A DNA stretch of 64,000 bases from Streptomyces hydrogenans (GTDB lineage: Bacteria; Actinomycetota; Actinomycetes; Streptomycetales; Streptomycetaceae), in the NCBI RefSeq assembly GCF_014656075.1, contig NZ_BNBS01000018.1, forward strand, positions 1 to 64,000, read 5' to 3'. Position 1 is the stretch's first letter. Every line of letters starts with the position of its first letter. The notes under the pieces were generated by a model. It saw nothing but the letters and a program-made list of their open reading frames with translations. It was not told where the DNA came from and made no database searches. The position numbers were made by a program, and so were the translations under genes. Below are positions 8,538-27,504 of the stretch, one piece after another.

Positions 8538-9500
8538 TCAGAAGAAGGCGACGCTCCGCTGGTCGACCTTGCGGCGGAACAGCCACAGCACCCAGCCCTG
8601 CGCCAGCAGCACCACGGCCAGCGCGGGCAGCAGCAGCGAGGACAGCGGGTCGAGGACGTCGGCCGGGGCGGCCAGCTCGGTCAGCGCCGACGCCGCACCC
8701 GCGCCGACCGCCAGCAGGGGAGCGGGGGCGGCGAGCGCGCCGAGCGCGAAGCCGGGACCGTGCGCGACCCGGCCGGACAGCGAACCCGCGAAGAACGCGG
8801 CGACCGCCCCGGCGACGACGAGGAGCAGCCCGACCACCGGCGAGGTCACCCCGTCGGCGAAGGGCACGCCCGCCACCGCGGCGGCCAGCAGCAGCCCGGC
8901 CGCCGGCAGCGCCAGCCGCCTGGCCTCGGCGGCGGCCCGCCGGGACGGCTCGCCGGTGGTGCGGGCCGCGGTGAACGCGGCACCGTGCAGCGCGAGCAGC
9001 GCCACCATGGCGACCGCGCCGAGCAGCGGCAGGACGCCGAAGAGGGTGCCGAAGGAGACCTGGCCGGACACGGCCGGCAGCCCCTGCGCCAGATTGCCCA
9101 GGACCAGGCCCCAGCAGGCGGCGAAGCCCGCCGAGGCGCCGGCCAGGAGCCGCTCCCAGCGGCGCTGGGTCGCCTCCTCGGGACGCCGGGCGCGGAACCA
9201 GATCGAGGCGCTGCGCAGCACCCAGCAGCAGACCAGCACCACCAGGACCGGCCGGAAGGCGGTGAAGGCGCTCTTCTCCAGGTCCGGGTAGGCGGCGATG
9301 AGCACGCCCGCCGAGACCACCAGCCAGACCTCGCCGGCCAGGAAGTAGGGGCCGACGGCGGCCATCACGGTCCGGCGCTCGTCCGGGGTGTGGGCGACGC
9401 GGCGCAGGAGCATGCCGGTGCCGATCACGAAGCCGTCGAGCACGAACCATCCGCCGAGCATGAGCCCGAGCACGCAGAGCCAGAGGACGTCCATCGTCAT
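8538..9500 (-). CDS. cydB: Cytochrome bd oxidase subunit II, divergent
   Basis: This 320-residue membrane protein has eight to nine helices. It contains 'GGWFVLDGFVIGTGMLL' near 15-32 (canonical GxFVLDGFDLGVG) and 'GPYFLAGEVWLV' near 49-60 (canonical GPxWDGNEVWL), so it is a CydB but clearly diverged. CydB pairs with CydA to form the quinol:O2 oxidoreductase that bypasses the bc1-aa3 branch. The start used is an ATG preceded by an AAGGA-type box; a second in-frame ATG follows two codons later. It lies 55 nt downstream of cydA and probably shares its transcript. Confidence 0.88.
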   Translation of the reverse strand: MTMDVLWLCVLGLMLGGWFVLDGFVIGTGMLLRRVAHTPDERRTVMAAVGPYFLAGEVWLVVSAGVLIAAYPDLEKSAFTAFRPVLVVLVCCWVLRSASIWFRARRPEEATQRRWERLLAGASAGFAACWGLVLGNLAQGLPAVSGQVSFGTLFGVLPLLGAVAMVALLALHGAAFTAARTTGEPSRRAAAEARRLALPAAGLLLAAAVAGVPFADGVTSPVVGLLLVVAGAVAAFFAGSLSGRVAHGPGFALGALAAPAPLLAVGAGAASALTELAAPADVLDPLSSLLLPALAVVLLAQGWVLWLFRRKVDQRSVAFF

Positions 9501-9555
9501 TCCTTCTTGTTTCCGGGGCGGTGCGGCCGGGCCGCGCGCGGGTCGGGGCCGGGGG

Positions 9556-10911
9556 TCACAGCGGGGGCAGGGGGGAGAGCGCGTCGTCGCGCGCGGCGGT
9601 CCGCCGCGCGGATCCGTCCGGGTCTCCGTCCGCCGCGCCGCCCTCGGTGTCCCGGCCGGTGCCCGCCGGGTCGTCGGCGAGGGTCAGGCCCAGGAACATC
9701 CGGCCGGTGCCGCGCCGGACGGTGCGGGCGATCAGCACCCAGTCCACGACGGCCAGTGCCGCGAAGACGGTGACGAAGGCGATCAGCGAGAACAGCATCC
9801 CGCCGGCCGAGACGTCCGACAGGGCGTCCTTCACGGCGACCTCGCCGTAGACGGCCCACGGCTGACGGCCCATCTCCCGGATCAGCCAGCCGCAGAGCAC
9901 GGCCACGAACGGCAGCGGGATCGTCCACACCAGGACGCGCAGCATCGTCCTCGTCCGCTCGATGCGGCGGCGGATGAAGAAGAAGGCGGCGACGACGCCG
10001 ATCGTCCAGGCCAGGTAGCCGGCCATCTGCATGGTCGAGAAGGCGGTGCTCAGCCACTCCGGCGGAGCCCAGTCCCCCGGCCCGAGGAGCTTGGTCATCT
10101 CGGCCTGGTACGCGGCCAGCGCCTCGGCGTCGCCGTTGATCGCGGCCGACTTGCCCTCCTGGTCGCCGACGAAGGACAGCTGCGGGAAACCGTTCAGGAC
10201 GGCCATCCAGACGCCGCCGATGCCGAGCGCGACGCCGCCGTGCAGCGAGCGCCGGAAGACCTCGGGGTCGGTGGTGCCGCGCAGGAAGTGCCAGGCGCTC
10301 GCGCCGGCGATCAGGAAGCCGCCGACGCCGATCGAGGCGGCGGTCAGGTGGTAGAGGGCGGGCAGCGCGCCGTCGTTGGTCAGCAGCGCGCCCAGGTCGG
10401 TCAGGTACATGGTGCCGTCCTCGCGCTTGGCGAAGCCGACCGGGTTCTGGAGGAACCCGTTGGTGACCATGATCCAGTACGCGGAGGCGTAGGCGGTGGC
10501 CGTCACGACGTAGAACGACAGCATGTGGGCCCAGCGCGGCAGCAGGTGCCAGCCGAAGATCCACAGGCCGAGGAAGGTGGACTCGACGAAGAAGGCGACG
10601 ATCGTCTCCATCGCCAGGGTCGTGCCGAACACGTCGCCGGTCAGCCGGGACAGGCCGGTCCAGCTCAGCCCGAACTGGAACTCCATCACCAGGCCGGTGA
10701 CGATGCCCAGCGCGTAGTTGATGACGTACACCTGACCCCAGAAGCGGGTCATCCGGTCGAAGACCGGGCGCAGGGCCGGTTTCCGGGTGAACACCGCCCG
10801 GCTGTTGATGTAGGCGAGGAAGGGCGCCAGGCCCAACGTCACCACGACGAAAGAGAAATGAAGGAACGCGGTCAGCGCGAACTGAAGCCGGCCCAGGTCT
10901 ACGGCGGTCAA
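9556..10911 (-). CDS. cydA: Cytochrome bd oxidase subunit I, divergent with shortened Q-loop
   Basis: This 451-residue subunit carries the haems and the quinol site. The haem-ligand His is in 'LQFALTAFLHFSFVVVTLG' (His18). The proton-path Glu pair is in 'AMETIVAFFVEST', a second ligand His in 'ALYHLTAAS', and 'GRQPWAVYGEV' matches the conserved GRQPW motif. The region between 'FPQLSFVGDQEGK' and the next helix ('STMQMAGYLAWT') is only about 45 residues. In standard CydA the periplasmic Q-loop and flanking helices are much longer there. TTG 10911 is preceded by AGGAGAG. The promoter upstream looks SARP-controlled (10964-11006), and no Rex-type operator (TTGTGAA-N4-TTCACAA) is seen in the 203 bp up to the next gene. 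This suggests a paralogue dedicated to the cluster, not the housekeeping bd oxidase. Confidence 0.85.
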   Translation of the reverse strand: MTAVDLGRLQFALTAFLHFSFVVVTLGLAPFLAYINSRAVFTRKPALRPVFDRMTRFWGQVYVINYALGIVTGLVMEFQFGLSWTGLSRLTGDVFGTTLAMETIVAFFVESTFLGLWIFGWHLLPRWAHMLSFYVVTATAYASAYWIMVTNGFLQNPVGFAKREDGTMYLTDLGALLTNDGALPALYHLTAASIGVGGFLIAGASAWHFLRGTTDPEVFRRSLHGGVALGIGGVWMAVLNGFPQLSFVGDQEGKSAAINGDAEALAAYQAEMTKLLGPGDWAPPEWLSTAFSTMQMAGYLAWTIGVVAAFFFIRRRIERTRTMLRVLVWTIPLPFVAVLCGWLIREMGRQPWAVYGEVAVKDALSDVSAGGMLFSLIAFVTVFAALAVVDWVLIARTVRRGTGRMFLGLTLADDPAGTGRDTEGGAADGDPDGSARRTAARDDALSPLPPL

Positions 10912-12029: not shown

Positions 12030-12365
12030 TTGCACCGCACTCTCATCGTCGCCCGACTCGCCGGTGACACCACCGGCGAGATCGGCGACGTGTTCGCCGA
12101 GTCCGACTCCACGGACCTGCCCCACATGATCGGGGTCTCCCGGCGGACCCTCTTCTCCTTCCACGACCTCTACTTCCACCTCGTCGAGGCCGACCAGGAC
12201 ATCACGCCGAACCTGTACAAGGCCCGCAGCCACCCGCTGTACGACGACATCAACACCCGCCTCGCCAAGCTGGTCTCGCCGTACGACCCGAACTGGCAGG
12301 AGCCCAAGGACGCCATGGCGTCCGCCTTCTACACGTGGACCCCGCAGGAGGGTGTACAGCGATGA
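12030..12365 (+). CDS. TcmI-family type II polyketide cyclase
   Basis: This 111-residue protein has the ferredoxin-like fold of TcmI-type cyclases (WhiE-ORFVII, PdmK relatives). It contains 'DSTDLPHMIGVSRRTLFSFHDLYFHLVE' and, nearer the C-terminus, 'DPNWQEPKDAMASAFYTW', both hallmarks of the family. These enzymes close the last ring(s) of tetracenomycin-type and pentangular polyphenols. TTG 12030 is chosen because GGAGG ends 6 nt before it and no in-frame ATG exists nearer the conserved start 'HRTLIVARL'. It is the first gene of the nine-gene PKS operon and overlaps the next gene (ATGA). Confidence 0.93.
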   Translation: MHRTLIVARLAGDTTGEIGDVFAESDSTDLPHMIGVSRRTLFSFHDLYFHLVEADQDITPNLYKARSHPLYDDINTRLAKLVSPYDPNWQEPKDAMASAFYTWTPQEGVQR

Positions 12366-12790
12366 CGACCGCACTGCCCGCGAAGATCAACGTCACGGAC
12401 GCCGCCCCGAACACCAAGCGCGGCGGCGACATCCGGGTCACGCTCAGCCCCAAGACCACCGGCTGCGGTTCCGGCTTCGGCGGTGTGCTGTGGCTGGAGC
12501 CCGGTGAGTGGATCACCGAGCACTACCACCCGTACTCCGAGGAGTTCCTGCACGTCGTCACCGGCGAGCTGGAGATCGCGCTGGACGACCGCAAGGTCGC
12601 GCTCGGCCCCGGCGACTCCCTCATGGTGCCGATCGACGTCCGGCACCGCCTCGTCAACACCGGGACCGAGAAGGCGCACCTCGTCTTCCACCTCTCCCCG
12701 CTCGCTCCCCGGCCCGAGCTCGGCCACGTCGACACCGAGGAGCCGCTGAACCCGGGCGCCGCCAACCCGGACGTGGGCGGGACGCGATGA
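12362..12790 (+). CDS. Cupin-type polyketide cyclase (WhiE-ORFII/RemF class)
   Basis: This 142-residue single-domain cupin has motif 1 near residues 55-70 ('[20 protein letters not shown]', with the His-X-His-type metal ligands and Glu) and motif 2 '[18 protein letters not shown]'. Metal-binding cupins of this class are found in spore-pigment (whiE), resistomycin and pradimicin-type clusters and assist regiospecific ring closure. It overlaps both neighbours by four bases (ATGA), so translation is coupled from the TcmI cyclase to KS-alpha. Confidence 0.9.
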
Positions 12791-14055
12791 CCCGGCGCGC
12801 CGTCATCACCGGCATCGGCGTCGTCGCCCCCGCGGCGGTGGGCCGTGAGGCGTTCTGGGACCTGCTGTCCTCGGGCCGCACCGCCACCCGGCCGATCAGC
12901 CTCTTCGACGCCAGCGCGTTCCGCTCCAGGATCGCCGCCGAGGTCGACTTCGACGCGGTGGCGGCCGGCCTGTCCCCGCAGGAGATCCGGCGGATGGACC
13001 GGGCCGGCCAGTTCGCGGTGGTCTCGGCGCGCGAGGCACTCGCCGACAGCGGTCTGGACATCGGCGGCGTCGACCCCGGCCGCCTCTCGGTGAGCCTGGG
13101 CAGCGCCGTCGGGTGCACCACCGGTCTGGAGGAGGAGTACCGCGTGCTCTCCGACGACGGCCGGCTGCACCACGTCGACCACCGCTACGGCGTTCCCCAC
13201 CTCTACGGCCACATGGTGCCCAGCACCCTGGCCGTGGAGGTGGCCAGGACGGCCGGCGCCGAAGGCCCGGTCGCCCTCGTCTCCACCGGCTGCACCTCCG
13301 GGATCGACGCCGTCGCGCACGGTGCCCAGCTCATCGAGGAGGGCTCCGCGGACATCGTCCTGGCCGGCGCCACGGACGCCCCCATCTCGCCCATCACCAG
13401 CGCCTGCTTCGACGCGATCAAGGCCACCTCGCCGAACAACGACGAGGCCGGCCACGCCTCGCGCCCCTTCGACGCCCGTCGGGACGGCTTCGTCCTGGGC
13501 GAGGGCGCGGCGGTCATGGTGCTGGAGTCCGAGGAGTCGGCGCTGGCCCGCGGCGCCCGGATCTACGCCGAGGTGTCGGGCTTCGCCAACCGCAGCAACG
13601 CGTACCACATGACCGGACTCAAGCCGGACGGCCGCGAGATGGCCGAGGCGATCTCGCTCGCCCTCGACCGGGCCCGGCTCGACCCGTCGGCGGTCGACTA
13701 CATCAACGCCCACGGCTCCGGCACCAAGCAGAACGACCGGCACGAGACCGCCGCCTTCAAGCGGAGCCTCGGGGCCCGCGCCCACGAGGTGCCGGTCTCC
13801 TCCATCAAGTCGATGATCGGGCACTCGCTCGGCGCCATCGGCTCCCTGGAGATCGCCGCCTGCGCCCTGGCGCTCCAGCGGCAGGTCGTCCCGCCGACGG
13901 CCAACCTCCACCACCGCGACCCCGAGTGCGACCTGGACTACGTGCCGCTCGTCGCCCGCGACCACGTCATGGACACCGTCCTGACCGTCGGCAGCGGATT
14001 CGGCGGCTTCCAGAGCGCGATGGTCCTCACCCGCACCCTCCAGGAGGCGGCGTGA
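12787..14055 (+). CDS. Ketosynthase alpha subunit of type II minimal PKS
   Basis: This 422-residue enzyme catalyses decarboxylative condensation of malonyl-ACP units together with the chain length factor. The active-site Cys is residue 169 in '[10 protein letters not shown]', and the catalytic histidines are 309 ('[12 protein letters not shown]') and 346 ('[10 protein letters not shown]'), numbering identical to the actinorhodin KS-alpha. ATG 12787 overlaps the cupin stop (ATGA). The C-terminus overlaps the CLF start (GTGA), the usual translational coupling of KS-alpha and CLF. Confidence 0.97.
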
Positions 14056-15317
14056 GCACCGTCGACCGCCCCGGCGGGCGGATCCTCGTCACCGGACTCG
14101 GCATCGTCGCCCCCACGGGCCCGACCGTCGAGGACCACTGGCAGGCCGTGCTGGCCGGCAAGTCCGGACTCGGCCGCATCACCGCCTTCGACCCGACCGG
14201 CTACCCCGTCACCGTCGCCGGGGAGGTCGCGGGCTTCGAGGCCCGGGGCCGCGTCCCGGGCCGGGTCGTCCCGCAGACCGACCGCTGGACCCACCTGGCG
14301 CTGGTCGCCACCGACGCCGCCCTCGCGGACGCCGGGGCCGACCCGGCCGAACTGGACGAGTACGAGATGGCCGTGGTCACCTCCAGCTCCTCCGGCGGCA
14401 CCGCCTTCGGCCAGAACGAGATGGAGAACCTGTACCGGCAGGGCCCCTCCTGGGTCGGCGCCTACCAGTCCATCGCCTGGTTCTACGCCGCCACCACCGG
14501 CCAGATCTCCATCCGGCACGGCATGCGCGGCCCCTGCGGCGTCGTCTGCGCCGAGCAGGCCGGCGGCCTGGACGCCATCGCCCAGGCCCGCCGTCTGCTG
14601 CGCACCGGCTCGCGGCTCGTGGTGACCGGCGGCACCGACTCCTCGCTCTGCCCGTACGGCGTCGTGGCGCAGCTGGCCGACGGCCGGCTGTCGACCCTCG
14701 ACGACCCGGCCCGCGCCTACACCCCCTTCGCCACCGACGCCCCCGGGCACGTGCCGGGGGAGGGCGGCGCGATCCTCGTCACCGAGACCGAGGAGGCGGC
14801 CCGCGCCCGCGGCCGTACCCGCTCCTGGGGCGCCGTCGAGGGCTGGGCGGCCGGCTTCGACCCGTACGACGACGCGGCCCGCACCGAGGGCAGGACCGAG
14901 GCGCCGAACCGGCCGCCGGTCCTCGCCGGAGTCATCCGCCGCGCCCTCGCCGACGCCGGTCTCGCCCCCCGTGACGTCGACGTCGTCTTCGCCGACGGCG
15001 CGGGCACCCCGGAGCGGGACGCCGACGAGGCCCGCGCGCTCGCCGAGGTCTTCGGCCCGCGCGGCGTCCCGGTCACCGCCCCGAAGTCGCTCACCGGGCG
15101 GCTCTACGGCGGCGGCGCCCCGCTCGACGTCGCCACCGCCCTGCTGGCGCTGCGGGACGGCATCGTCCCGCACACCGCCGGCACGGCGCGCCCCGACCCG
15201 GACTACGCCCTCGACCTGGTCGTGGACCGGCCCCGCGAACTCCCGCTGCGCCACGCCCTCGTGGTCGCCCGCGGCCACGGCGGCTTCGTCTCCGCCCTCG
15301 TCGTCGGCTCGGCATGA
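14052..15317 (+). CDS. Chain length factor (ketosynthase beta)
   Basis: This 421-residue partner of KS-alpha sets chain length. At the position of the KS active-site Cys it has Gln169 ('[13 protein letters not shown]'), the diagnostic residue of CLF. The His positions of KS-alpha are not conserved. Presence of TcmI-type and cupin cyclases, a KR and ABM enzymes argues for a long chain (C24-C26, pentangular class), but chain length cannot be read directly from the sequence here. GTG 14052 overlaps the KS-alpha stop. Confidence 0.96.
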
Positions 15318-15366
15318 GCCGGCGGCTCACCCACCCCCTCACCCGCTCCCGGAAGGACGGACAGCT

Positions 15367-16090
<724 letters not shown>

Positions 16091-16108
16091 ACCGAAGGAC
16101 CCACCACC

Positions 16109-16861
16109 ATGGACCTCAGCCTGAACGGCCGCAAGGCTCTCGTCACCGGCGGCAGCCGCGGCGTCGGCCGCGGCATCGTGCTCGCCCTCGCCCGCGCCGG
16201 CGTCGACGTCGTCACCTGCTACCGGCAGGAGAGCGAGGCCGTCGAGTCGCTCCGCGTCGAGCTCAAGGAGATCGGCGGCGACCACCACGTGCTGCGCGCC
16301 GACCTCACCGACCCCGCCGAGATCGAGGGCCTCCTCGCCGAGTGCGCCACCCGCCTCGGCCGCCTCGACCTCGTCGTCAACAACGCCGGCGCGATCAGCC
16401 ACATCCCCTTCGGCGAGCTGGCGCTCGACGAGTGGCACCGGGTCATCGACACCAACGTGACGGCCTCGTACCTGATCGTCCAGCACGCCCTGCCGCTGCT
16501 GCACGAGGGCTCGTCGATCGTCTCGATCGGCTCCAAGTCCGCCGAGGTCGGCATCCCGACCCGCGCCCACTACACCGCCTCCAAGGCCGCCCTCATAGGC
16601 CTGACCCGCTCGCTCGCCAAGGAGCTCGGCCCGCGCGGCATCCGCGTCAACGTGGTCGCCCTCGGCGTCATCGAGACCGAGGCCATGGCGGCCCTCCCGG
16701 ACGACGTCCGCACCCAGATGCGCGAGCGCTACGAGGCCAAGACGGCCCTCGGCCGGCTCGGCACCCCGACCGAGGTCGGCCAGGCCATCCTCTTCCTGGC
16801 CAGCCCGCTCTCCTCCTACGTGACCGGCGCCACCCTGAACGTCGACGGGGGTATCTCCTGA
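16109..16861 (+). CDS. Polyketide ketoreductase (SDR)
   Basis: This 250-residue classical short-chain reductase has cofactor motif '[10 protein letters not shown]' near 13-22, 'NNAG' near 92, Ser near 142 ('SIGSKSAEV') and the Tyr155-X3-Lys159 pair ('[11 protein letters not shown]'). In pentangular clusters the KR works on a late carbonyl (C-19 type) together with an ABM monooxygenase, as in pradimicin PdmG/PdmH. The ABM gene follows here with a TGATG overlap. Its presence separates the cluster from a plain spore-pigment locus. Confidence 0.9.
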
Positions 16862-17256
16862 TGACCGCGACCACCGACACCATCGCCCCCGCGACGTCCG
16901 ACGCCGCGACCACGGGCCCGTACCGCGTCATGCTCCGCATGGAGATCCGGCCGGGCATGACCGAGGACTTCGAGAAGGTCTGGCTCGCCATCGGCGACTC
17001 GGTCACCTCGCACCCCGCCAGCCTGGGCCAGACCCTCGCCCGCGCCACGGACGAGGAGAACGTCTACTACATCGTCAGCGACTGGACCGACGAGCCGAGC
17101 TTCCGGCTCTTCGAGACCAGCGACCGCCACCTGGAGCACCGCCAGCAGCTGCACCCGTTCCGCAGCCAGGGCTCCATGGTGACGATGCAGGTCACCGCCC
17201 GGGTCGACCCGTCCGGCGAGCACGCCACGCACGCCGACTGGGAGGCGGCGCGTTGA
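16861..17256 (+). CDS. Antibiotic biosynthesis monooxygenase (ABM), quinone-forming
   Basis: This 131-residue cofactor-independent oxygenase has the dimeric ferredoxin-like fold. Core: 'RVMLRMEIRPGMTEDFEKVW', then 'NVYYIVSDWTDEPSFRLFETSDRHLEH', with the Trp and His residues usual for ABM enzymes of the ActVA-Orf6/PdmH type, which oxidise an anthrone-like ring to a quinone. A 20-residue Thr/Ala-rich head precedes the domain. It overlaps the KR stop (TGATG) and the next ABM gene (TTGA). Confidence 0.9.
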   Translation: MTATTDTIAPATSDAATTGPYRVMLRMEIRPGMTEDFEKVWLAIGDSVTSHPASLGQTLARATDEENVYYIVSDWTDEPSFRLFETSDRHLEHRQQLHPFRSQGSMVTMQVTARVDPSGEHATHADWEAAR

Positions 17257-17567
17257 GCGTCGCCCCGGCCGGCGAGGTGCGCGTGCTCGTCTACCACGCG
17301 ACGACGGACGAGCAGGGCGTCGAGGCCGCCTACCACCAGGTGAGCCTGGAGATGGCGAAGGTCGACGGGATGCTCGGCAACGAGCTCCTGCACTCCCTGC
17401 CCGACCCCCAGGGGTTCCTCGTGCTGAGCCGCTGGCGCGACGAGGAGGCGTTCCACGCCTGGGAGCGCGGTGCCTCGCACCAGGACAGCACCTCGCCGCT
17501 GCGCCCCTTCCGGGACACCCGGATGAGCGTCCCGTTCGGGATCTACCGGGTGCGCGCCGCGTACTGA
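17253..17567 (+). CDS. Second ABM-type monooxygenase
   Basis: This 104-residue protein of the same fold as its neighbour contains 'VRVLVYHATTDEQGVEAAYHQVS' and 'GFLVLSRWRDEEAFHAWERG'. TTG 17253 overlaps the preceding stop (TTGA) and has GGGAGG 7 nt upstream, which decides the start. Paired ABM proteins often work as partners or on two positions of a polyketide. It is the last gene of the PKS operon, ahead of a very strong terminator. Confidence 0.85.
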   Translation: MSVAPAGEVRVLVYHATTDEQGVEAAYHQVSLEMAKVDGMLGNELLHSLPDPQGFLVLSRWRDEEAFHAWERGASHQDSTSPLRPFRDTRMSVPFGIYRVRAAY

Positions 17568-17576
17568 CCGTCCACC

Positions 17577-17638
17577 GCACCACAAGGGCCTGGCCCCGGT
17601 CTCCGAGAAGGAGAACCGGGGCCAGGCCCTTGTGGTGC
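17577..17638. terminator. Bidirectional terminator between the PKS operon and FAD hydroxylase operon
   Basis: A perfect 24-bp inverted repeat (17577-17600 with 17615-17638) with a 14-nt loop lies 10 nt after the ABM stop and 65 nt from the convergent hydroxylase stop. It is the longest perfect hairpin found in the window. Confidence 0.93.
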
Positions 17639-17702
17639 TCGTGCGCTCTCCGGCCTCTCCGCCTTCCCGTCGGTCCGCCCGCGCGCGCACGGGCGGACCG
17701 GC

Positions 17703-19229
17703 TCACAGGAAGCGGCGCACGCTCTGGAGGTGCCGTTCCAGGACCGCCGGCTCGGCCGGCGAACCGTCGAAGGAGACGTGCCCGTCCGGGCGGACCAGCA
17801 ACAGCCGGGCCCCCGCGTCCGGTACGCCCTCCGGGGCGGGCGCGGCGCCGGCGGCCTCGGCGGCGGGTACGGCGGGGCAGGCCACCAGCGGCAGCCCGAA
17901 CCGCGCGGCGACCGCGGCCGCCGCCCGGCCCGCCTCCGCGCCCGGACGGCCCGGCCGGGCCGGGCCGGTGCCGGGCAGCAGGGCGACGTACCAGCCGGGA
18001 CCCGCGGCGCGGCCGGCGCCCTCCGGCACCCGGTGGCCCGCGAGCGCGCCGCCGGCCGCCGTGAGCGGACCCGGGGCGTGCACCGTCTCCGGCTCCGTGC
18101 GCAGCTCGAAGACGCGGGCCAGCAGCCGGTCGCGGATGACCTCCAGGGGCACCGTCGAGCCGTAGCCGAGCACCCGCTCGGCCCGCTCCCGGATCCGCTC
18201 CGCGGCCGTCCGCCGCTCGGCGTCGTAGGTCGCGAGCAGTTCCGTCCCGGCCGCGGCCGGGAGCGAGGCCGCGGCGGCCAGCTTCCAGCCGAGCTCGGCG
18301 GCCTCCTGGAGGCCCGTGTTGAGTCCGTGCACCGGCATCGGGAAGGACCGGGCGGCGTCGCCCAGCAGCACCACCGGGCCGTCCACGAAGGCGTCGGCCA
18401 CCCAACTCCGCGGCCGCACCGCCCAGATTGCCCCGGGCTCGCCGGTCAGGCGCACCCCGACCGAGCGCCGGGCGGCCTCGACGACCTCGGCCGGCGTCGG
18501 CTGCCGGTCCGCCCCGGCCGGGTCGTCCGGCAGGGCCAGGAAGAGCCGGTGGCCGCCGCCCGGCAGGGGCACCAGGCCGCCGTGGCCCGTGTGGTCGCGC
18601 AGGATGTGCTCGACGCCGGGCGCGGGCGTGTCCTCCGGGGCCACCGACACGTCGGCGAGCAGCCAGCGCATGCCGACCGGCGCCACGTCGGCCGGACCGG
18701 TCACCCCGGCCACCCGGCCGGCCGCGCCGGTCGCGCACACCACCCGGTCCACCGGGGCCTCCTCGACCCCGTCGGGGCCCCGGAGCACGACGACGGCGGG
18801 GGCCCCGGCACCGTGCCGGGACGCCCCGCCGTCGTTCCGGCGGACCTCCAGGAGCTCCACCCCGTACTCCACGGCGCCGCCGAGGGCGCGCAGCCGTTCC
18901 AGGAGCAGTCGTTCCAGGTCTTCCTGGCGGATCAGCAGCGGCGCCGCGAACGGACCGTCCCCGGACCGCAGGTCGACCTCCGCGTCGGCGCCCGCGATCA
19001 GGAACCGCTTGCGCTCCAGCGCCGTGCCCGCCCGGCGCAGCGCCTCGACGGACACCCCCGCCGCGTCCAGCACCCGCAGGGTGCGCTGCCACAGCGTGGG
19101 GCAGCGCGAGCCGCCCGCCGGGCCGGGCCGCCGGTCCACCACCCGGCAGGGGACGCCGCGCGCCGCCAGTTCGACGGCGCACAGCAGACCGCTCGGCCCG
19201 GCCCCCGCGATCAGGATCCGCCCGGTCAC
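17703..19229 (-). CDS. FAD-dependent aromatic polyketide hydroxylase
   Basis: This 508-residue flavoprotein is of the PHBH-like class (WhiE-ORFVIII, TcmG, RdmE, PgaE relatives). The ADP-binding motif 'IAGAGPSGLLCAVELAA' is at about 6-22 and the second FAD motif 'VVLLGDAARSFPMPVHGLNTGLQEA' near 287. A C-terminal thioredoxin-like region carries 'LLLVRPDGHVSFDG', typical of the family. It hydroxylates an aromatic ring using NAD(P)H and O2. GTG 19229 overlaps the SchA/CurD stop (GTGA), which fixes the start. It is the last gene of the minus-strand operon starting at 20513. Confidence 0.92.
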   Translation of the reverse strand: MTGRILIAGAGPSGLLCAVELAARGVPCRVVDRRPGPAGGSRCPTLWQRTLRVLDAAGVSVEALRRAGTALERKRFLIAGADAEVDLRSGDGPFAAPLLIRQEDLERLLLERLRALGGAVEYGVELLEVRRNDGGASRHGAGAPAVVVLRGPDGVEEAPVDRVVCATGAAGRVAGVTGPADVAPVGMRWLLADVSVAPEDTPAPGVEHILRDHTGHGGLVPLPGGGHRLFLALPDDPAGADRQPTPAEVVEAARRSVGVRLTGEPGAIWAVRPRSWVADAFVDGPVVLLGDAARSFPMPVHGLNTGLQEAAELGWKLAAAASLPAAAGTELLATYDAERRTAAERIRERAERVLGYGSTVPLEVIRDRLLARVFELRTEPETVHAPGPLTAAGGALAGHRVPEGAGRAAGPGWYVALLPGTGPARPGRPGAEAGRAAAAVAARFGLPLVACPAVPAAEAAGAAPAPEGVPDAGARLLLVRPDGHVSFDGSPAEPAVLERHLQSVRRFL

Positions 19230-19966
19230 GGGCGGACGGCCGCGGCGGGAGCGGGCGCCGACCCGGCGCCCACCGGCACGGACAGGGCGCGCCGCTCCAT
19301 GGACCGCCGCTCGAAGACGGCCACGAAGCCCTCGGGGGTGCTGGTGTCGCCGTACTCCTCCAGGTAGGGCGTCAGCCGGGCCTCGATCTGCGGCCGGCCC
19401 GGCCGGTGCGCCATGTAGCGGGCGACGTCGGCGACCTCGCCGTCGTAGGCGACGACGCGCACCATGTGGGGGCCGGTCACGAAGACCGCGACCCCGTGCA
19501 GGCTGCCGCTGGTGTCGCCCTGCTCGTCGCGGAGCATCGGCGTGGCCTGCGGCCGGACGGCGGTGAAGATCGTGGTGAGCTCGTCGGCGGCGCCCGGCCG
19601 CACCGGGTAGTGGATCGCCGACAGGGCGGCCGGCACCGCGTTCACCACGCGCTGCTGCACCCGGCGCATCAGCCGCTCGCGGAGCGCCTCCGCGAATCCG
19701 GCGGACGGGTCCCAGGGCGTCTCCAGGAACGGCGCGACGTGCTCCGCCCAGCGCGCCACCTCGGGCAGCCCGGCCAGTACGGCGGCCGGGTCGTCGTACT
19801 CCTCGCGCAGGTGGAAGGCGAGGATCAGCAGCTCCTCGCGGACGAAGACGGCGGCGGACAGCACCGGGCCGTCCGCGTCGAGCAGCGGTGACGGCGGCGG
19901 GGGAGCCGCGGCGAACCGGCGGACGGCGTCGGGCGCGAGACGCGCGCCCACGGCGACGAAGGACAT
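19226..19966 (-). CDS. SchA/CurD-like domain protein (WhiE-ORFI class)
   Basis: This 246-residue protein resembles SchA/CurD/WhiE-ORFI proteins, found next to spore-pigment and pentangular type II PKS genes. Features are 'RVQQRVVNAVPAALSAIHYPVRPGAADELTTIF' and 'GVAVFVTGPHMVRVVAYDGEVADVARYMAHRPG', which look like two alpha-beta barrel units similar to ABM domains. The biochemical role of the family is unsettled, perhaps oxidation or cyclisation. It is co-translated with the FAD hydroxylase, so the two probably act in sequence. Confidence 0.82.
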   Translation of the reverse strand: MSFVAVGARLAPDAVRRFAAAPPPPSPLLDADGPVLSAAVFVREELLILAFHLREEYDDPAAVLAGLPEVARWAEHVAPFLETPWDPSAGFAEALRERLMRRVQQRVVNAVPAALSAIHYPVRPGAADELTTIFTAVRPQATPMLRDEQGDTSGSLHGVAVFVTGPHMVRVVAYDGEVADVARYMAHRPGRPQIEARLTPYLEEYGDTSTPEGFVAVFERRSMERRALSVPVGAGSAPAPAAAVRP

Positions 19967-20054
19967 GCGGAGAACCTCCGGAAAGGGATGACAAGGGAAA
20001 CGGGGCAGTCGAGGGAAGCGGGGGAGAGGAGCGGGGGCGGAGGGGCGGGCCGCG

Positions 20055-20513
20055 CTACGGCAGCAGGACCGCGGCCGCCGAGGTCAGACCCAGCGCGCCG
20101 AAGGCGCACGAGGTGCGCAGCACGTGCCACTGCCGCCAGCGCGGCCTCGGGTCCGGCCAGTCGGCGCCGAGCGCGCCCGGCCGCATGGTGGCCACCACCT
20201 TGTTGATGGGCACGTTGCCGAACTGCGACACCACCTGCACGCCGACCAGCAGCAGCGCGGAGGCCGCGAACAGCAGCCGCAGCCCGGTGGTCGGCGCCGT
20301 CACGACCAGCGCCACGTCGGCCAGCAGCGCCGCCGTCACGATGATCGGCATGTACGGGTGGTAGCCCTTGCCCAGCAGCTGGTGGGTCACCACGTAGTCG
20401 TCCGGCTTCAGCGCGAAGAGGGTGGGCAGCACGCTCACCGCGACGGCGAAGAACACGCCCGCGACGAGCCCGGTGCCCAGCAGGGTGACGCCCCCCAGGA
20501 TCTGTGTGAACAC
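20055..20513 (-). CDS. DUF1772 membrane protein (anthrone oxygenase-like), copy 1
   Basis: This 152-residue protein has four hydrophobic helices and the DUF1772 landmarks 'PTLFALKPDDYVVTHQLLGKGYHPYMPII', 'FGNVPINKVV' and 'WRQWHVLRT'. Some fungal DUF1772 members (HypC type) oxidise anthrones to anthraquinones. GTG 20513 is the likely start; GGAAGGAAG lies 12 nt upstream, a little far. It leads the minus-strand operon with SchA/CurD and the FAD hydroxylase. A second DUF1772 gene starts divergently at 20702. Confidence 0.78.
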   Translation of the reverse strand: MFTQILGGVTLLGTGLVAGVFFAVAVSVLPTLFALKPDDYVVTHQLLGKGYHPYMPIIVTAALLADVALVVTAPTTGLRLLFAASALLLVGVQVVSQFGNVPINKVVATMRPGALGADWPDPRPRWRQWHVLRTSCAFGALGLTSAAAVLLP

Positions 20514-20598
20514 GGTCGGTACCGACTTCCTTCCGGCAGGGCCGGGACGGGACGGGCCCGCGCCCCGGCATGTAGGCCCGCACCCTGTCGCAGCCGCC

Positions 20599-20659
20599 TC
20601 GCGCGCCGGTCCAGGCACCCTCCAGCGCCGACCCCAACGCCCCTCGACCCCTCGTCGAG
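20599..20659. promoter_or_regulatory. Overlapping divergent SARP-type promoters for the two DUF1772 operons
   Basis: Plus strand: TCGCGCG (20599), TCCAGGC (20610), TCCAGCG (20621) and CCCCAAC (20632) step by 11 bp; GACCCC (20647-20652) lies 8 nt after the last. Minus strand: TCGACGA (20659-20653), TCGAGGG (20648-20642) and TTGGGGT (20637-20631) step by 11 bp; GAGGGT (20622-20617) lies 8 nt after the last. The two arrays interlock, so one bound regulator could fire both operons or the two promoters could compete. Confidence 0.5.
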
Positions 20660-20701
20660 CAGCGCCCCGGACGCTGTGGCCGACCGAGGAGGAGAAACCC
20701 C

Positions 20702-21166
20702 GTGACCGAACTGCTGATGGCCCTGGTCCTGGCGGGCAACGGCGTCGCCGCCGGCGTCTTCGCCGGCACCGTGCTGGGCGGCGTCCCGCTGCTCATGTCG
20801 CTGCCGCCCCAGGGCTACGTCCACGCCCACCGCTTCCTGGCGACCCGTTACGACCCCTTCATGCCGGTGACGCTGGCCGCCAGCGCCCTCATCGACATCG
20901 TGCTCGCCTTCACCGCCCCCACCGGCACCGCCCGCACCCTGTACGGCGTGGCGGCCGTGGTCCTGCTGAGCGTGATGACGGTGTCGGTGACCAAGACCGT
21001 GCCGATCAACCGCTGGGTCGTCACCCTGACGCCGGAGTCCATGCCCGACGACTGGGAGGACGTCGACCCGCGCCGCGACTGGCAGCGCTGGAACGCCGTC
21101 CGCAGCTCCCTGTGCGTGCTCGGCCTGTTCGTCAACCTGGCCGCGCTGACGACCGCCTGGAGCTGA
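20702..21166 (+). CDS. DUF1772 membrane protein (anthrone oxygenase-like), copy 2
   Basis: This 154-residue protein has four membrane helices and is homologous to the divergent neighbour: 'YVHAHRFLATRYDPFMPVTL', 'TVPINRWVVTLTPESMPDDW' and 'DWQRWNAVRSSLCVLG' align with the same blocks. The conserved Asn/Pro/Ile-Asn and Arg-Trp residues suggest both copies share one activity or form a heteromer. GTG 20702 is preceded by GAGGAGGAG. First gene of the tailoring/sugar operon running to 25874. Confidence 0.8.
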   Translation: MTELLMALVLAGNGVAAGVFAGTVLGGVPLLMSLPPQGYVHAHRFLATRYDPFMPVTLAASALIDIVLAFTAPTGTARTLYGVAAVVLLSVMTVSVTKTVPINRWVVTLTPESMPDDWEDVDPRRDWQRWNAVRSSLCVLGLFVNLAALTTAWS

Positions 21167-21177
21167 GGGGAACCGCC

Positions 21178-21963
21178 ATGCACCGCCGTACCGCGCTCGT
21201 CACCGGCGCCTCCAGCGGGCTCGGCGAGGTCTTCGCCCGCGAGCTCGCCGCCCGCGGCCAGGACCTGGTCCTGGTGGCCCGCCGCGCCGACCGGCTGCAC
21301 GCCCTGGCCGGCGAACTCACCACCGCGCACGGCGTCGTGGCGGAGGTGCTGCCCGCCGACCTGACCCGGCCCGAGCAGCTCGCCGAGGTCACCCGCCGGC
21401 TCGCCGGAGGACCCACCGAGGTGGGGCTCCTGGTCAACAACGCGGGCGTCCTCGGCCGGATCGCCCCGCTCGCCGACCAGGACCCCGACGACCAGGCCGC
21501 CCTCGTCGACCTCGACGTCCAGGCGGCCGTCCGGCTCACCGCCGCCGCGGCCCGCGCCATGACCCGGCGCGGCGACGGACGCATCGTCAACGTCTCGTCG
21601 ATGACCGGCTTCCTGCCCGTCCCGCGCGGCGCGGTCTACGGCGCCTCCAAGGCGTTCCTCACCGCCTTCAGCGAGAACGTCCACTGCGAGACCGCCCACC
21701 TGGGCGTGCACGTCACCGCCGTCTGCCCCGGCTCGGTCCGCACCGGACTGCACCAGGGCTCCGGCACCAAGGGCCGGCTCGGCCGGAACCTCGACCCGCT
21801 CGACGTCGTCCGCGACGCGCTCGCCGCCGTCGAGGCGGGCCGCCCGCTGTGCGTACCCGGCCGCGACTACCGGCTCAAGGCCGGGCTCGCCACCGCCCTG
21901 CCCCGCGCCCTGGTACGGCGCGCCGTGCTGCGCCTCTGGCAGCAGGAGAGGAGATCCCGATGA
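21178..21963 (+). CDS. Short-chain dehydrogenase/reductase
   Basis: This 261-residue SDR has cofactor motif 'TGASSGLGEVFA' near 9-20, 'NNAG' near 85, 'NVSSMTG' near 138 and the catalytic pair Tyr154/Lys158 ('VYGASKAFL'). Its layout is closer to the DltE/YqjQ-type SDRs than to the PKS ketoreductase at 16.1 kb. Probably reduces a ketone or quinone of the polyketide, or a keto-sugar. It overlaps the next gene by ATGA. Confidence 0.85.
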   Translation: MHRRTALVTGASSGLGEVFARELAARGQDLVLVARRADRLHALAGELTTAHGVVAEVLPADLTRPEQLAEVTRRLAGGPTEVGLLVNNAGVLGRIAPLADQDPDDQAALVDLDVQAAVRLTAAAARAMTRRGDGRIVNVSSMTGFLPVPRGAVYGASKAFLTAFSENVHCETAHLGVHVTAVCPGSVRTGLHQGSGTKGRLGRNLDPLDVVRDALAAVEAGRPLCVPGRDYRLKAGLATALPRALVRRAVLRLWQQERRSR

Positions 21964-22373
21964 GTACCGAGCCCGCCGGCCCCGCCGCGCCGACCGGGGC
22001 GTCCCCGGCCGCCCCGCCCGCCCCGCTTCAGGTCCACGTCCGCCACCGCACCGCCGACGCGGACGCCCTGCGCGCCGCCTACGCCGTCTCCCGCCGGGAC
22101 CTGGCCGGCACCCCCGGCCTCACCGGTCTCTCGCTGCTGCGGCAGACGGCGGCCCCGGACGCCTGGGTCCTGGTCATGAGCTGGACCGGCCGGGCCGCGT
22201 ACGAGGCGTGGGAGTCCGGACCCGACCACAAGGCGTACCGGTCCCCGATGCGCGCCTTCCAGGACCGCGCCCACCCCGACGGCCACTACACGGTCTTCGA
22301 GGGCCTGCCGGGCGACGCCGTCCCCGGCGCGGACGCCGCCACGCCCGGCCCCGTCCCCACCCCCGCCGGATGA
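21960..22373 (+). CDS. Third ABM-type monooxygenase-like protein
   Basis: This 137-residue protein has a Pro/Ala-rich head and tail around one ABM domain: 'VHVRHRTADADALRAAYAVSRRDLAGTPGLTG' and 'AWVLVMSWTGRAAYEAWESGPDHKAYRSPMRAF'. It resembles the protein at 17253 more than the one at 16861. ATG 21960 overlaps the SDR stop (ATGA), with GGAGAGGAG upstream. With three ABM proteins, two DUF1772 proteins and one flavoprotein, the cluster is rich in oxidases. Confidence 0.8.
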   Translation: MSTEPAGPAAPTGASPAAPPAPLQVHVRHRTADADALRAAYAVSRRDLAGTPGLTGLSLLRQTAAPDAWVLVMSWTGRAAYEAWESGPDHKAYRSPMRAFQDRAHPDGHYTVFEGLPGDAVPGADAATPGPVPTPAG

Positions 22374-22386
22374 GGAGTCAGCCCCG

Positions 22387-23487
22387 ATGACGATGAAAGC
22401 GCTCGTGACGGCCGGTCACAGCAGCCGCGGTCTGCGGCCGGTGACCGCCGGCACCCCCACCCAGCTGGTGCCGCTGGCCAACGAACCCCTGCTCCACCAC
22501 TCGCTGCGGGAGATCGCCGCGGCCGGCGTCACCGACGTCGGCGTGGTCACCGGACCCGACGGGGGAGCCGTCCACCGGTCCCTCGGCGACGGCCACCGGT
22601 TCGGCGTCCGGATCACCTACCTGCACCAGCCGATGCGCCGCGGCCTCGCGCACGCGGTCATCGACGCCCGGGGCTGGCTGGGCGACGACGACTTCCTGCT
22701 CCACCCGGGCCACACCGTCTCGCACGGCGCGCTGCCCGCCCTCGTCGAGGACTTCCGGGCGGGCCGCGCGGACGCGCTGGTGATGGTCGACGCCGGCGGC
22801 GACGGCCCGGTGGACCTCGACGCCCTCTCCCGGCTCGGCAGCATGGAGCCCGGCCCGCCCGGTGCCGCGCCGCGCGTCCTGGACCCGGCGGAGGGCCCCG
22901 GCGGCCCGGGCGCCGGGACCATGACCGGCCTCTGCGTCTTCACGCCCGCCGTCCACCAGGCGGTGTCCGCGCTGCGGCCCTCGTGGCGCCGGACCCTGGA
23001 GTTCACCGACGCCCTGCTGTGGCTGGGCGAGCACGGCTACGAGGTGCGCGGCCACACCGCCCGCGGCTACTGCGGCGACGCGTCCCGCCCCGAAGGGCTG
23101 CTGGCCTGCAACCGGTACCTGCTGTCCGGCCGGCGGACCCTGATCGAGGGCACCGTCGACGAGGCCACGCACATCAGCGGGCCGGTGGTCGTCGCGCCCG
23201 GCGCGGACGTCACCCGCTGCCGGATCACCGGACCCGTCGTCATCGGCCACAACGCCGTGGTCGCGGACAGCGTCATCGGCCCCGACGTCTCGATCGGCCC
23301 GGACTGCGTCGTCCAGGACGCCTCCGTGCACGGCACGGTCCTGTTCGACGGCGCCTGGGTGTCCGGCGTGCACGGCCTGCGGGACTCCGTGATCGGCCGG
23401 GACGCCCGGGTGGTCCGCCGTCCGGAGCGGACCGACGGCCACCAGCTCGTCCTCGGCGACCGGGCCACCGCCCGGCTGAGCGCCTGA
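22387..23487 (+). CDS. Degenerate sugar-1-phosphate nucleotidyltransferase with left-handed beta-helix
   Basis: This 366-residue protein has the StrD-like long RmlA architecture: an N-terminal nucleotidyltransferase fold, then hexapeptide repeats from about 265 to 320 ('GPVVVAPGADVTRCRITGP', 'VIGPDVSIGPDCVV'). The catalytic motifs are broken. The nucleotide loop reads 'TAGHSSRGLRPVT', where GGxGxRLxPLT is normal. 'TPTQLVPL' lacks the Lys of SxKQL, and the metal-binding LGDN is replaced by His106-Pro-Gly-His109. The rest of the fold is intact ('GLAHAVIDARGWLG'). It is unlikely to make NDP-sugar. A regulatory or scaffold partner of true RmlA (25014), or a changed reaction, is more likely. Confidence 0.75.
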   Translation: MTMKALVTAGHSSRGLRPVTAGTPTQLVPLANEPLLHHSLREIAAAGVTDVGVVTGPDGGAVHRSLGDGHRFGVRITYLHQPMRRGLAHAVIDARGWLGDDDFLLHPGHTVSHGALPALVEDFRAGRADALVMVDAGGDGPVDLDALSRLGSMEPGPPGAAPRVLDPAEGPGGPGAGTMTGLCVFTPAVHQAVSALRPSWRRTLEFTDALLWLGEHGYEVRGHTARGYCGDASRPEGLLACNRYLLSGRRTLIEGTVDEATHISGPVVVAPGADVTRCRITGPVVIGHNAVVADSVIGPDVSIGPDCVVQDASVHGTVLFDGAWVSGVHGLRDSVIGRDARVVRRPERTDGHQLVLGDRATARLSA

Positions 23488-24089
23488 TGGCGACCGCCGA
23501 GGCGGGCCGTCCGGCGACCGGGTTACGGACCCGGCCGGCCCGCCGCCACCGGCTCACCGGGCGGCTGCCCGGCCGGCTGGGCGAGGTGGCCCGGTTCGCC
23601 GCCGTCGGCGGCACCGCCTTCGTCATCGACGCGGGCGGCGCCAACCTCCTGTGGTGGCTGCTCGGCGACGGCGGCCACCTCACCGGGAAGGTGCTGTCGG
23701 TCCTGGCCGCCACCACCTTCTCCTTCGCCGCCAACCGGCACTGGACCTTCGACGACCGCCCCCGCCGGGGACGGACCCGGGAGTTCGGGCTGTTCGTCCT
23801 GACGAACGCCCTCGCGGCCGGTGCCTCGCTGCTCTGCCTGGGCTTCACCGTCTACGTGCTCGGTCTCGAGTCGCTGACGGCCAAGAACGTCTCCGCCAAC
23901 GTCGTCGGCGTCGCCCTGGGCACCGTCTTCCGCTACTGGGCCTACCAGCGGTGGGTCTTCCCGAGCGGTCAGCTGGTTCAGGACCGTCCGAACCCTGAGG
24001 AAAGGAACGTCGATTCCGATGCGCATTCTGGTCACGGGGGGAGCGGGGTTCATCGGCTCCCGGTACGTCCGAGGAGTGCTGGGAGGTGA
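23487..24089 (+). CDS. GtrA-family membrane protein with a TTA codon
   Basis: This 200-residue protein has four membrane helices and the GtrA landmarks 'RFAAVGGTAFVIDAGGANLLW', 'TTFSFAANRHWTF' and 'VFRYWAYQRWVF'. GtrA proteins are thought to move polyprenyl-phosphate-linked sugars across the membrane. Codon 13 is TTA (23523-23525), the rare Leu codon read only by bldA tRNA, and the only in-frame TTA I noticed in the window. ATG 23487 overlaps the previous stop (TGATG). The 3' end overlaps rmlB by 71 bp, unusually long, so the last 25 residues are of doubtful value. Confidence 0.85.
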   Translation: MATAEAGRPATGLRTRPARRHRLTGRLPGRLGEVARFAAVGGTAFVIDAGGANLLWWLLGDGGHLTGKVLSVLAATTFSFAANRHWTFDDRPRRGRTREFGLFVLTNALAAGASLLCLGFTVYVLGLESLTAKNVSANVVGVALGTVFRYWAYQRWVFPSGQLVQDRPNPEERNVDSDAHSGHGGSGVHRLPVRPRSAGR

Positions 24090-25013
24090 GTACCCCGGGG
24101 CCGCGGACGCACAGGTGACCGTCCTCGACGCGTTCACCTACGCCGGCCGCCCCGAGAACCTCGACCCCTACCGGGGCGATCCCCGGCTGCGGGTGATCCA
24201 CGGCCGGGTCGAGGACCCGGAGGCCGTCGACCGTGCGATGCGCGGCCAGGACGCGGTGGTGCACTTCGCCGCCGAGTCCCACGTCGACCGCTCGATCGCC
24301 GACGGCGCCGCCTTCGTCCGCACCAACGTCCAGGGCACCCAGACCCTCGCGGAGGCCGCCCACCGCCACGGCGTCGGCGTCTTCGTGCACGTCTCCACCG
24401 ACGAGACCTACGGCTCCCTGGCCACCGGCAGCGCCGACGAGGACCACCCGCTGCGCCCCAACTCGCCCTACGCGGCGTCCAAGGCGGCCAGCGACCTGGT
24501 CGCGCTCGCCTGCCACCGCACCCACGGCCTGGACGTCCGGGTCACCCGGTGCACCAACAACTACGGGCCGTACCAGTTCCCCGAGAAGATCGTCCCGCTC
24601 TTCGTCACCCGCCTCCTGGAGGGCCGCTCGGTCCCGCTCTACGGGGACGGGCTCAACATCCGCGACTGGCTGCACGTCGACGACCACTGCCGCGGCGTCC
24701 AGCTCGTCCTCGAACACGGCCGGGCCGGCGAGGTCTACAACATCGGCGGCGGCACCGGACTGACCAACCTCGCCCTCACCGAGCGGCTCCTCGGCCTCTT
24801 CGGCGCGGGCCCGGAGCGCATCGAGTACGTCGAGGACCGCAAGGGCCACGACCGCCGCTACGCCCTGGACTGGAGCAAGATCCGCGACGAGCTGGGCTAC
24901 CGCCCGCGCTGGGACCTCGCCGAGGGGCTGGCCGCCACCACCCGGTGGTACGCCGAGAACCGCTCCTGGTGGGAGCCGCTGCGCTCCGCCCCGGCGGACA
25001 CCGTGGGCGCCTC

Positions 25014-25017
<4 letters not shown>
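24019..25017 (+). CDS. rmlB: dTDP-glucose 4,6-dehydratase
   Basis: This 332-residue extended SDR converts dTDP-glucose to dTDP-4-keto-6-deoxyglucose, the branch point for deoxyhexoses. NAD motif 'GGAGFIGS' is at 7-14, catalytic Asp128-Glu129 in 'STDETYGS' and Tyr151-X3-Lys155 in 'YAASK'. Most RmlB proteins read STDEVYG; the Thr after DE is a small deviation. 'NNYGPYQFPEKIVPLFV' and 'RDWLHVDDHC' are standard substrate-binding blocks. It overlaps gtrA upstream and rmlA downstream (GTGA). No later deoxysugar gene (C-3/C-5 epimerase, 4-ketoreductase, aminotransferase) is visible here. Confidence 0.93.

Positions 25018-27504
<2,487 letters not shown>

Follow-up and report, generated by a model that had tools for sequence, protein, structure and literature searches.

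A long-type RmlA homologue lacking catalytic residues in the sugar block of a Streptomyces hydrogenans polyketide cluster, a possible non-catalytic partner in dTDP-sugar synthesis

The window, i.e. the whole 64,000-nucleotide stretch analysed here (74 % GC) from the 9.0 Mb genome of Streptomyces hydrogenans, carries a polyketide cluster at approximately 12-26 kb. Its type II PKS core is followed by a set of tailoring genes, and three antibiotic biosynthesis monooxygenase (ABM) proteins are encoded in total. From the gene set the polyketide is taken by us to be of the pentangular type. The cluster ends in a sugar block, RLP-GtrA-RmlB-RmlA, followed by a gene of the GuaB1 family; matches to the RmlC and RmlD families sit elsewhere in the genome. 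RLP stands for the RmlA_long-like protein with a lost active site that is the subject of this work. Its gene lies 13 bases behind the end of an ABM gene (position 22373), and its stop codon overlaps the gtrA start codon in the sequence TGATG (23485-23489), so the tight operon coupling described in the initial annotation was confirmed. The features of the locus are collected in Table 1.

Table 1. Genes and motifs of the RLP locus (window coordinates)
Feature	Position	Strand	Basis or remark
Type II PKS core: TcmI-like cyclase, cupin, KS-alpha, CLF, ACP	12030..15627	+	
Tailoring genes: aromatase/cyclase, ketoreductase, two ABM, FAD monooxygenase, SchA/CurD, two anthrone-oxygenase-like, SDR	15629..21963	both	
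Antibiotic biosynthesis monooxygenase (ABM), upstream of RLP in the operon	21960..22373	+	
RLP (RmlA_long-like protein, active site lost)	22387..23487	+	ATG to TGA, 366 aa
RLP residues 9-18, AGHSSRGLRP, replacing the nucleotide loop (A/S)GGxGTRLRP	22411..22440	+	alignment
RLP T25, replacing the catalytic Lys of KQL	22459..22461	+	K in 121/121 homologues
RLP residues 81-87: Q81, G86, L87 kept, P84 changed to R	22627..22647	+	alignment
RLP residues 106-109, HPGH, replacing YLGD with the metal-binding Asp	22702..22713	+	D109 in 121/121 homologues
RLP D166-P167, replacing Glu-Lys (sugar-phosphate contacts)	22882..22887	+	alignment
RLP C229 (W in the family) to D231 (second Asp, kept)	23071..23079	+	alignment
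RLP left-handed beta-helix, approx. residues 250-345	23134..23421	+	hexapeptide-type matches; strand pattern of the model
GtrA-like membrane protein, start overlapping the RLP stop	23487..24089	+	PF04138
RmlB, dTDP-glucose 4,6-dehydratase	24019..25017	+	TIGR01181, 413.3 bits, over cut-off
Short-type RmlA	25014..25874 (alternative start 25056)	+	complete active site, but no C-terminal segment and several allosteric residues missing

Upstream of the polyketide core, a gene at 7075-8253 encodes a glycosyltransferase of the macrolide family TIGR01426, with a score of 290.2 bits where the cut-off is 260. Between it and the core lies a pair of cytochrome bd genes (8538-10911), consisting of the gene for oxidase subunit II (8538-9500, minus strand, Pfam match) and, beside it, an apparent subunit I (9556-10911, minus strand), which was read by eye. 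One possibility is that this pair plays a resistance role against a product directed at respiration.

The long-RmlA profile TIGR01208 matched RLP over positions 1-350 of 353 with 245.7 bits (244.0 in the genome-wide search), below the family cut-off of 320.25 bits. One hexapeptide-type match in the beta-helix was over its cut-off and the remainder were under. The retention of a StrD-like fold and of the beta-helix, claimed previously, is supported by the extent of the profile match and by the fold of the model described below, and the protein is indeed full length, the frame being uninterrupted over its 366 amino acids.

RLP was aligned with 97 homologues, of which 37 came from search loci and 60 were chosen, not at random, from ranked lists; loci of its own genome and CLF loci were left out. 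The set was then enlarged to 121 by the addition of three sequences from viral contigs, two of them identical in the alignment, and of 21 genus members with weak best matches (8e-56 to 7e-67), selected deliberately and by eye. No degenerate homologue was found in these 21 weak-match genomes, one of which encoded a protein with a single Gly-to-Ala change. The eight catalytic positions G11, G13, R15, K25, D109, E166, K167 and D231 were all intact in 120 of the 121 homologues, and homologue L222 carried the single change G13A. In RLP seven of the eight differ and only D231 is retained. The Gly-rich loop reads TAGHSSRGLRP instead of the family LAGGxGTRLRP, TQLV stands for KQLV, HPGHT (residues 106-110) for YLGDN, DPA (166-168) for EKP, with E166D a mild change, and CGDAS (229-233) for WxDTG. 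The reported losses of the Gly-rich loop, the Lys of SxKQL and the Asp of LGDN, with HPGH at 106-109, were thus all borne out by the alignment with 121 homologues. Homologues with the same substitutions were searched for, as the initial annotation had proposed, and none was found, the RLP changes being unique among the homologues examined.

More widely, RLP keeps 74 of the 106 columns conserved at ≥95 % in the 97 homologues. L8, G11, G13, R15, K25, P84, D109, N110, E166, K167 and W229 are among the lost residues, whereas G10, Q26, Q81, G86, L87, G151, G181 and D231 are retained. The motif differences are substitutions within an unbroken reading frame, with no stop, frameshift or truncation. 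Neither a frameshift nor an assembly error accounts for the altered motifs, because the frame of 366 codons is open and alignable over the entire length of the family. The two Asp residues equivalent to D109 and D231 hold the metal.

The roles of these residues were transferred to RLP by our own mapping from VTC1. In the sections of the VTC1 study that were available (PMC9168903), Gly9, Thr12, Arg13 and Lys23 surround citrate or pyrophosphate, Glu195-Lys196, Asp111 and Asp219 are termed catalytically critical, the Glu-Lys pair being assigned to the sugar phosphate, and Gly85 is assigned to the base. Judged from its sequence, RLP lacks the residues for thymidylyl transfer, a conclusion that is strongly supported. 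That RLP retains some nucleotidyltransferase activity, or an altered one, in spite of its substitutions could be argued from the preserved fold, Q26 and D231, but is very improbable in view of the combined loss of G11, G13, R15, K25, D109, E166 and K167, all kept in 120 of 121 homologues. Of the positions on the thymine (base) side, Q81 and G86 do not vary among the 121 homologues and L87 occurs in 119 of them; as these three are kept in RLP while the residues of the chemistry are gone, the protein might retain binding of a nucleoside or dTDP-sugar without catalysis.

The substitutions brought histidines into the pocket, H11 at the loop glycine and H109 at the metal Asp, next to the retained second Asp, D231. 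It is conceivable that His11, His106, His109, His113 and Asp231 form a rebuilt pocket around the former metal site for another metal-dependent reaction or a non-Mg site, and the fast change of the catalytic domain, not shared by the rest of RLP, would agree with such a new reaction. Residues 15-19 and 148-177 of RLP are, however, modelled with low confidence, and a new reaction is considered improbable.

The AlphaFold2 model of RLP, built from eight alignment rows, reached a mean pLDDT of 70.5 and a pTM of 0.69, with weak stretches at residues 15-19, 137-139, 148-177 and 348-366. An earlier model had a mean pLDDT of 62.4, and Foldseek gave the same fold for both. In VIA-align the model was matched with RmlA, GalU, GlmU, GMPPA/GMPPB and eIF2B-type chains at Z scores of 25-28, many of them tied; the Sulfolobus entry 2ggo gave Z 26.9 (rmsd 7.7, 325 residues aligned) and the GMPPA/GMPPB entry 7d72 gave Z 25.7 (rmsd 7.5, 334 aligned). 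The structure comparison backs the predicted fold of RLP and is silent on its function.

The loss of so many conserved residues raises the question of whether RLP is a relic, i.e. the original long RmlA of the cluster, no longer needed beside the short RmlA, whose motifs are intact, and now drifting. The two domains of the protein were compared separately. Identity of the catalytic (N-terminal) domain to the homologues was on average 0.412 and at most 0.457, which is below the minimum of 0.513 among homologue pairs (mean 0.68). In the beta-helix (C-terminal) the mean identity of RLP to homologues was 0.403, within the range of homologue pairs (mean 0.54, minimum 0.325). RLP has therefore diverged fast in the catalytic domain and at an ordinary rate in the beta-helix, which is no more diverged than in pairs of intact homologues.

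The losses were also counted by column, using 21 RmlA positions that we take to form the active site and that agree with the VTC1 roles where the two sets overlap. Among columns conserved at ≥95 %, RLP lost 11 of 19 in the active site and 21 of 87 elsewhere (Fisher p 0.006); the enrichment was also seen with cut-offs of 90 % (p 0.038) and 99 % (p 0.008). None of the eight invariant beta-helix columns was lost. Outside the active site the catalytic domain lost 17 of its 67 columns at ≥95 %, and the beta-helix 4 of 20. Since conserved columns outside the active site were lost too (24 %, compared with a mean of 1.1 % of all conserved columns in the homologues), constraint on RLP has been relaxed in general, as the relic explanation would have it. 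This explanation also gains from the very long end branch of RLP in a quick tree (4.86, median 0.12), which puts the protein beside long RmlAs that carry MPKQLI-like motifs, its exact position being unsure.

Codon usage was examined by simulating drift through 88 neutral amino-acid changes under four mutation biases, with 400 runs each, all begun from the present sequence and its GC3. Simulated mean GC3 was 0.89-0.94 and the highest value of 400 runs 0.943-0.973, so that the GC3 of RLP, 0.973, is at or above the maximum under each of the four biases. The probability of encountering no stop under drift ranged from 0.04 to 0.44 across settings; the absence of stops was therefore rejected as proof of selection, being too weak, and in several settings it is compatible with drift. 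For a relic, the open frame might be explained by a recent loss of function or by translational coupling to the downstream gtrA gene. The lack of any frameshift or stop counts against a relic all the same, as do the GC3 value and the behaviour of the beta-helix, and the relic explanation, including this account of the open frame, is regarded as rather unlikely. Simple decay of RLP is unlikely, given the ordinary divergence of its beta-helix beside a fast-changing catalytic domain and a GC3 still at 0.973, although the eroded conserved columns outside the active site point towards it. Taken together, domains, columns and codon usage make a maintained function more likely than decay. The previous statement that RLP is not simply decaying stands on the domain contrast and codon usage, but it gets little help from the missing stops and has to be read beside the relic explanation.

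RLP had no match above 46 % identity besides the query among the matches listed from overlapping draws of 295, 395 and 391 genomes, mostly of one genus and with matches ranked; the homologues listed were 36-46 % identical. A scan of named genomes with six exact 8-residue patterns yielded three homologues of 38-39 % identity, all with intact motifs, although a diverged orthologue could escape such patterns, and the 554 plasmid records matching RLP were all below 60 % identity. With no orthologue found in these searches, RLP is a singleton so far, which is what a drifting relic would also look like. The literature search found no report on an inactive RmlA homologue among the matches listed, and nothing on a thymidylyltransferase in pentangular gene clusters.

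The isolation of RLP may in part be that of the whole sugar block. The best identities among the matches listed were 49 % for GtrA (246 genomes) and 57 % for the window RmlA (121 genomes), and 68 % for RmlB, which was compared among the RmlA loci only. The best listed relative of GtrA lies inside a longer, 896-codon frame (L206, 9084-11774). In the 1.5-kb flanks of 29 non-self GtrA loci from the 246 genomes no RLP, RmlB or RmlA was found at E 1e-5. At least 30 of 392 genomes contain a polyketide core clearly akin to that of the window (core and tailoring genes at 12030-21963), the CLF being 67-71 % identical. The surroundings of the best 30 CLF matches, one in each of these 30 genomes, were inspected over up to 3.5 kb upstream and 16.4 kb downstream, and RLP, GtrA, RmlB and RmlA were not found in these stretches (E 1e-4, 40 % of the query). 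Counted downstream from the CLF start, the sugar block of the window occupies 8.3-11.8 kb, which makes stretches L085 and L088, with contigs ending after approximately 7 kb, uninformative; in L090, L093, L097 and L099 the contig ends after 12-15 kb. As the block was unseen in the 30 nearest CLF clusters, it may have joined the polyketide cluster within its own lineage.

RLP had been described as lying next to an intact RmlA. The two genes are not adjacent, as those for GtrA and RmlB lie between them, and only the active site of the RmlA is intact. In comparison with 29 relatives (loci taken from 51 non-self matches listed), the window RmlA kept all 16 active-site columns conserved at ≥93 %, and at the 85 % cut-off one of 18 differed, by Thr to Ser. 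It ends, however, at 272 amino acids, against 287-318 in the relatives, and scores 302.7 bits against a cut-off of 360.65 for its own family. The C-terminal Tyr of a YGxY-type motif is found in 29 of 29 relatives, and the segment that carries it is missing from the window RmlA together with all three conserved C-terminal columns. A frameshift behind the short C-terminus was considered and rejected, as no YGxY was present in the three forward frames over 300 bases at that place. In the own genome, TIGR01208 gave eight matches, none over cut-off and RLP the best (244.0 bits); the short RmlA family likewise gave none over cut-off, with the window RmlA best at 301.9 bits and the next match at 90.3. 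Besides the window RmlA, no RmlA-type enzyme with intact motifs was found in the genome, the motifs of the remaining matches having been read for L001, L003 and L004 only.

The allosteric pocket of P. aeruginosa RmlA, as given in the accessible excerpts of PMC8613358, comprises Leu45, Gly115, His119, Glu120, Ile256, Arg259 and Gln260, and the C-terminal Tyr293 is near its mouth; for the Salmonella enzyme an excerpt of PMC10375476 names Glu256 and His117 as allosteric-site residues. The positions in these excerpts were mapped through alignments of RmlA chains other than that of P. aeruginosa and through the genus alignment. At the mapped positions the window RmlA has Ala43, Ala113, Pro117, Ala253, Thr256 and Ser257, while Glu118 and Glu252 are kept. 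Leu43, Gly113 and Arg256 occur together in 23 of the 29 relatives, the mapped positions not all being conserved in the genus. Three of four mapped allosteric columns conserved at ≥85 % were lost, compared with 32 of 121 outside the active site and C-terminus (Fisher p 0.066); at 93 % the counts were two of three and 19 of 100 (p 0.105), so that neither contrast reaches significance alone. A selective loss of the allosteric site is suggested by this pattern, which is not proof because the window RmlA is divergent in general: of 122 conserved columns it has 24 altered or absent, a relative nine at most. Devoid of the C-terminal segment and of several putative allosteric residues, the enzyme may be insensitive to feedback. 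The presence of a damaged RmlA with an intact active site alongside RLP is a point new in this analysis.

Since nearly all its catalytic residues are gone, RLP is probably a helper or regulator and not a working RmlA itself. The reading preferred here, although tentatively, is that RLP is a non-catalytic homologue of long RmlA, retained in the cluster's dTDP-sugar branch as a partner with a regulatory or structural role. RLP would bind a dTDP-sugar or dTDP without turnover and, with its beta-helix in direct contact with RmlA or RmlB, would relay the bound state to that protein, sensing and catalysis being placed on two proteins by analogy with GMPPA/GMPPB. The position of the gene inside a coupled operon with those of RmlB and RmlA counts for a partner. 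It counts against it that RLP (long) and the window RmlA (short) are from different subfamilies. The earlier suggestion of an allosteric partner of RmlA draws some support from the apparent damage to the allosteric site of the enzyme and is weakened by the subfamily difference. A more specific version, considered doubtful, is a split of dTDP-sugar catalysis from feedback sensing, in which the short RmlA would have given up its allosteric site and C-terminus, and RLP, after losing its active site, would act as a separate sensor that may carry a new His/Asp metal site in the former catalytic pocket.

A partner of another kind was also weighed, namely a glycosyltransferase that RLP might stabilise or activate, as EryCII does for EryCIII. 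EryCII sets a precedent for an enzyme homologue acting on a glycosyltransferase in a sugar cluster (PMC3391682), and an MGT-family glycosyltransferase is encoded in the window. The product of the latter scores only 34.7 bits with the activator-dependent family TIGR04516, against a cut-off of 440, and its gene is approximately 14 kb away on the opposite strand, behind the cytochrome bd genes. Moreover RLP is no P450 homologue, and a glycosyltransferase helper is judged to be improbable.

Should the preferred reading of RLP as a non-catalytic partner be true, the locus would provide a bacterial pseudo-partner of the thymidylyltransferase type in an antibiotic-type cluster and a compact system for the move of regulation from one polypeptide to two, and it would be relevant to users of RmlA for making sugar nucleotides. 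Among known systems, the RmlA_long/StrD-type proteins (TIGR01208) share with RLP the domain order, the length and the beta-helix, but RLP differs in the loss of seven of eight catalytic positions and in its score below the family cut-off. EryCII, too, is homologous to an enzyme but serves as an activator in the sugar pathway of an antibiotic (PMC3391682); it has another fold than RLP, and the window glycosyltransferase falls by score outside the activator-dependent family. GalF (TIGR01105, named GalU regulator) is homologous to nucleotidyltransferases and carries an annotation as the regulator of one of its relatives; RLP matches it weakly, over residues 3-63 (31.2 bits against 659.2).

GMPPA, in the available portions of PMC11228364 and PMC9168903, is catalytically inactive, binds GDP-mannose, inhibits GMPPB and makes contact with a partner that shares its architecture, and in plants its homologue KJC1 raises VTC1 activity. 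In contrast to GMPPA as portrayed in these portions, RLP is accompanied in its genome by a short RmlA only. RLP is not placed in the GMPPA system, since the search of its own genome with the TIGR01208 profile, in which RLP was the best match and none was over cut-off, found no partner of like architecture. The apparently complementary losses in RLP and the window RmlA fit a division of labour like that of GMPPA and GMPPB but do not prove it. RLP resembles human GMPPA in its modelled fold and in a sequence that appears non-catalytic, and an RmlA with intact motifs is encoded in the same operon.
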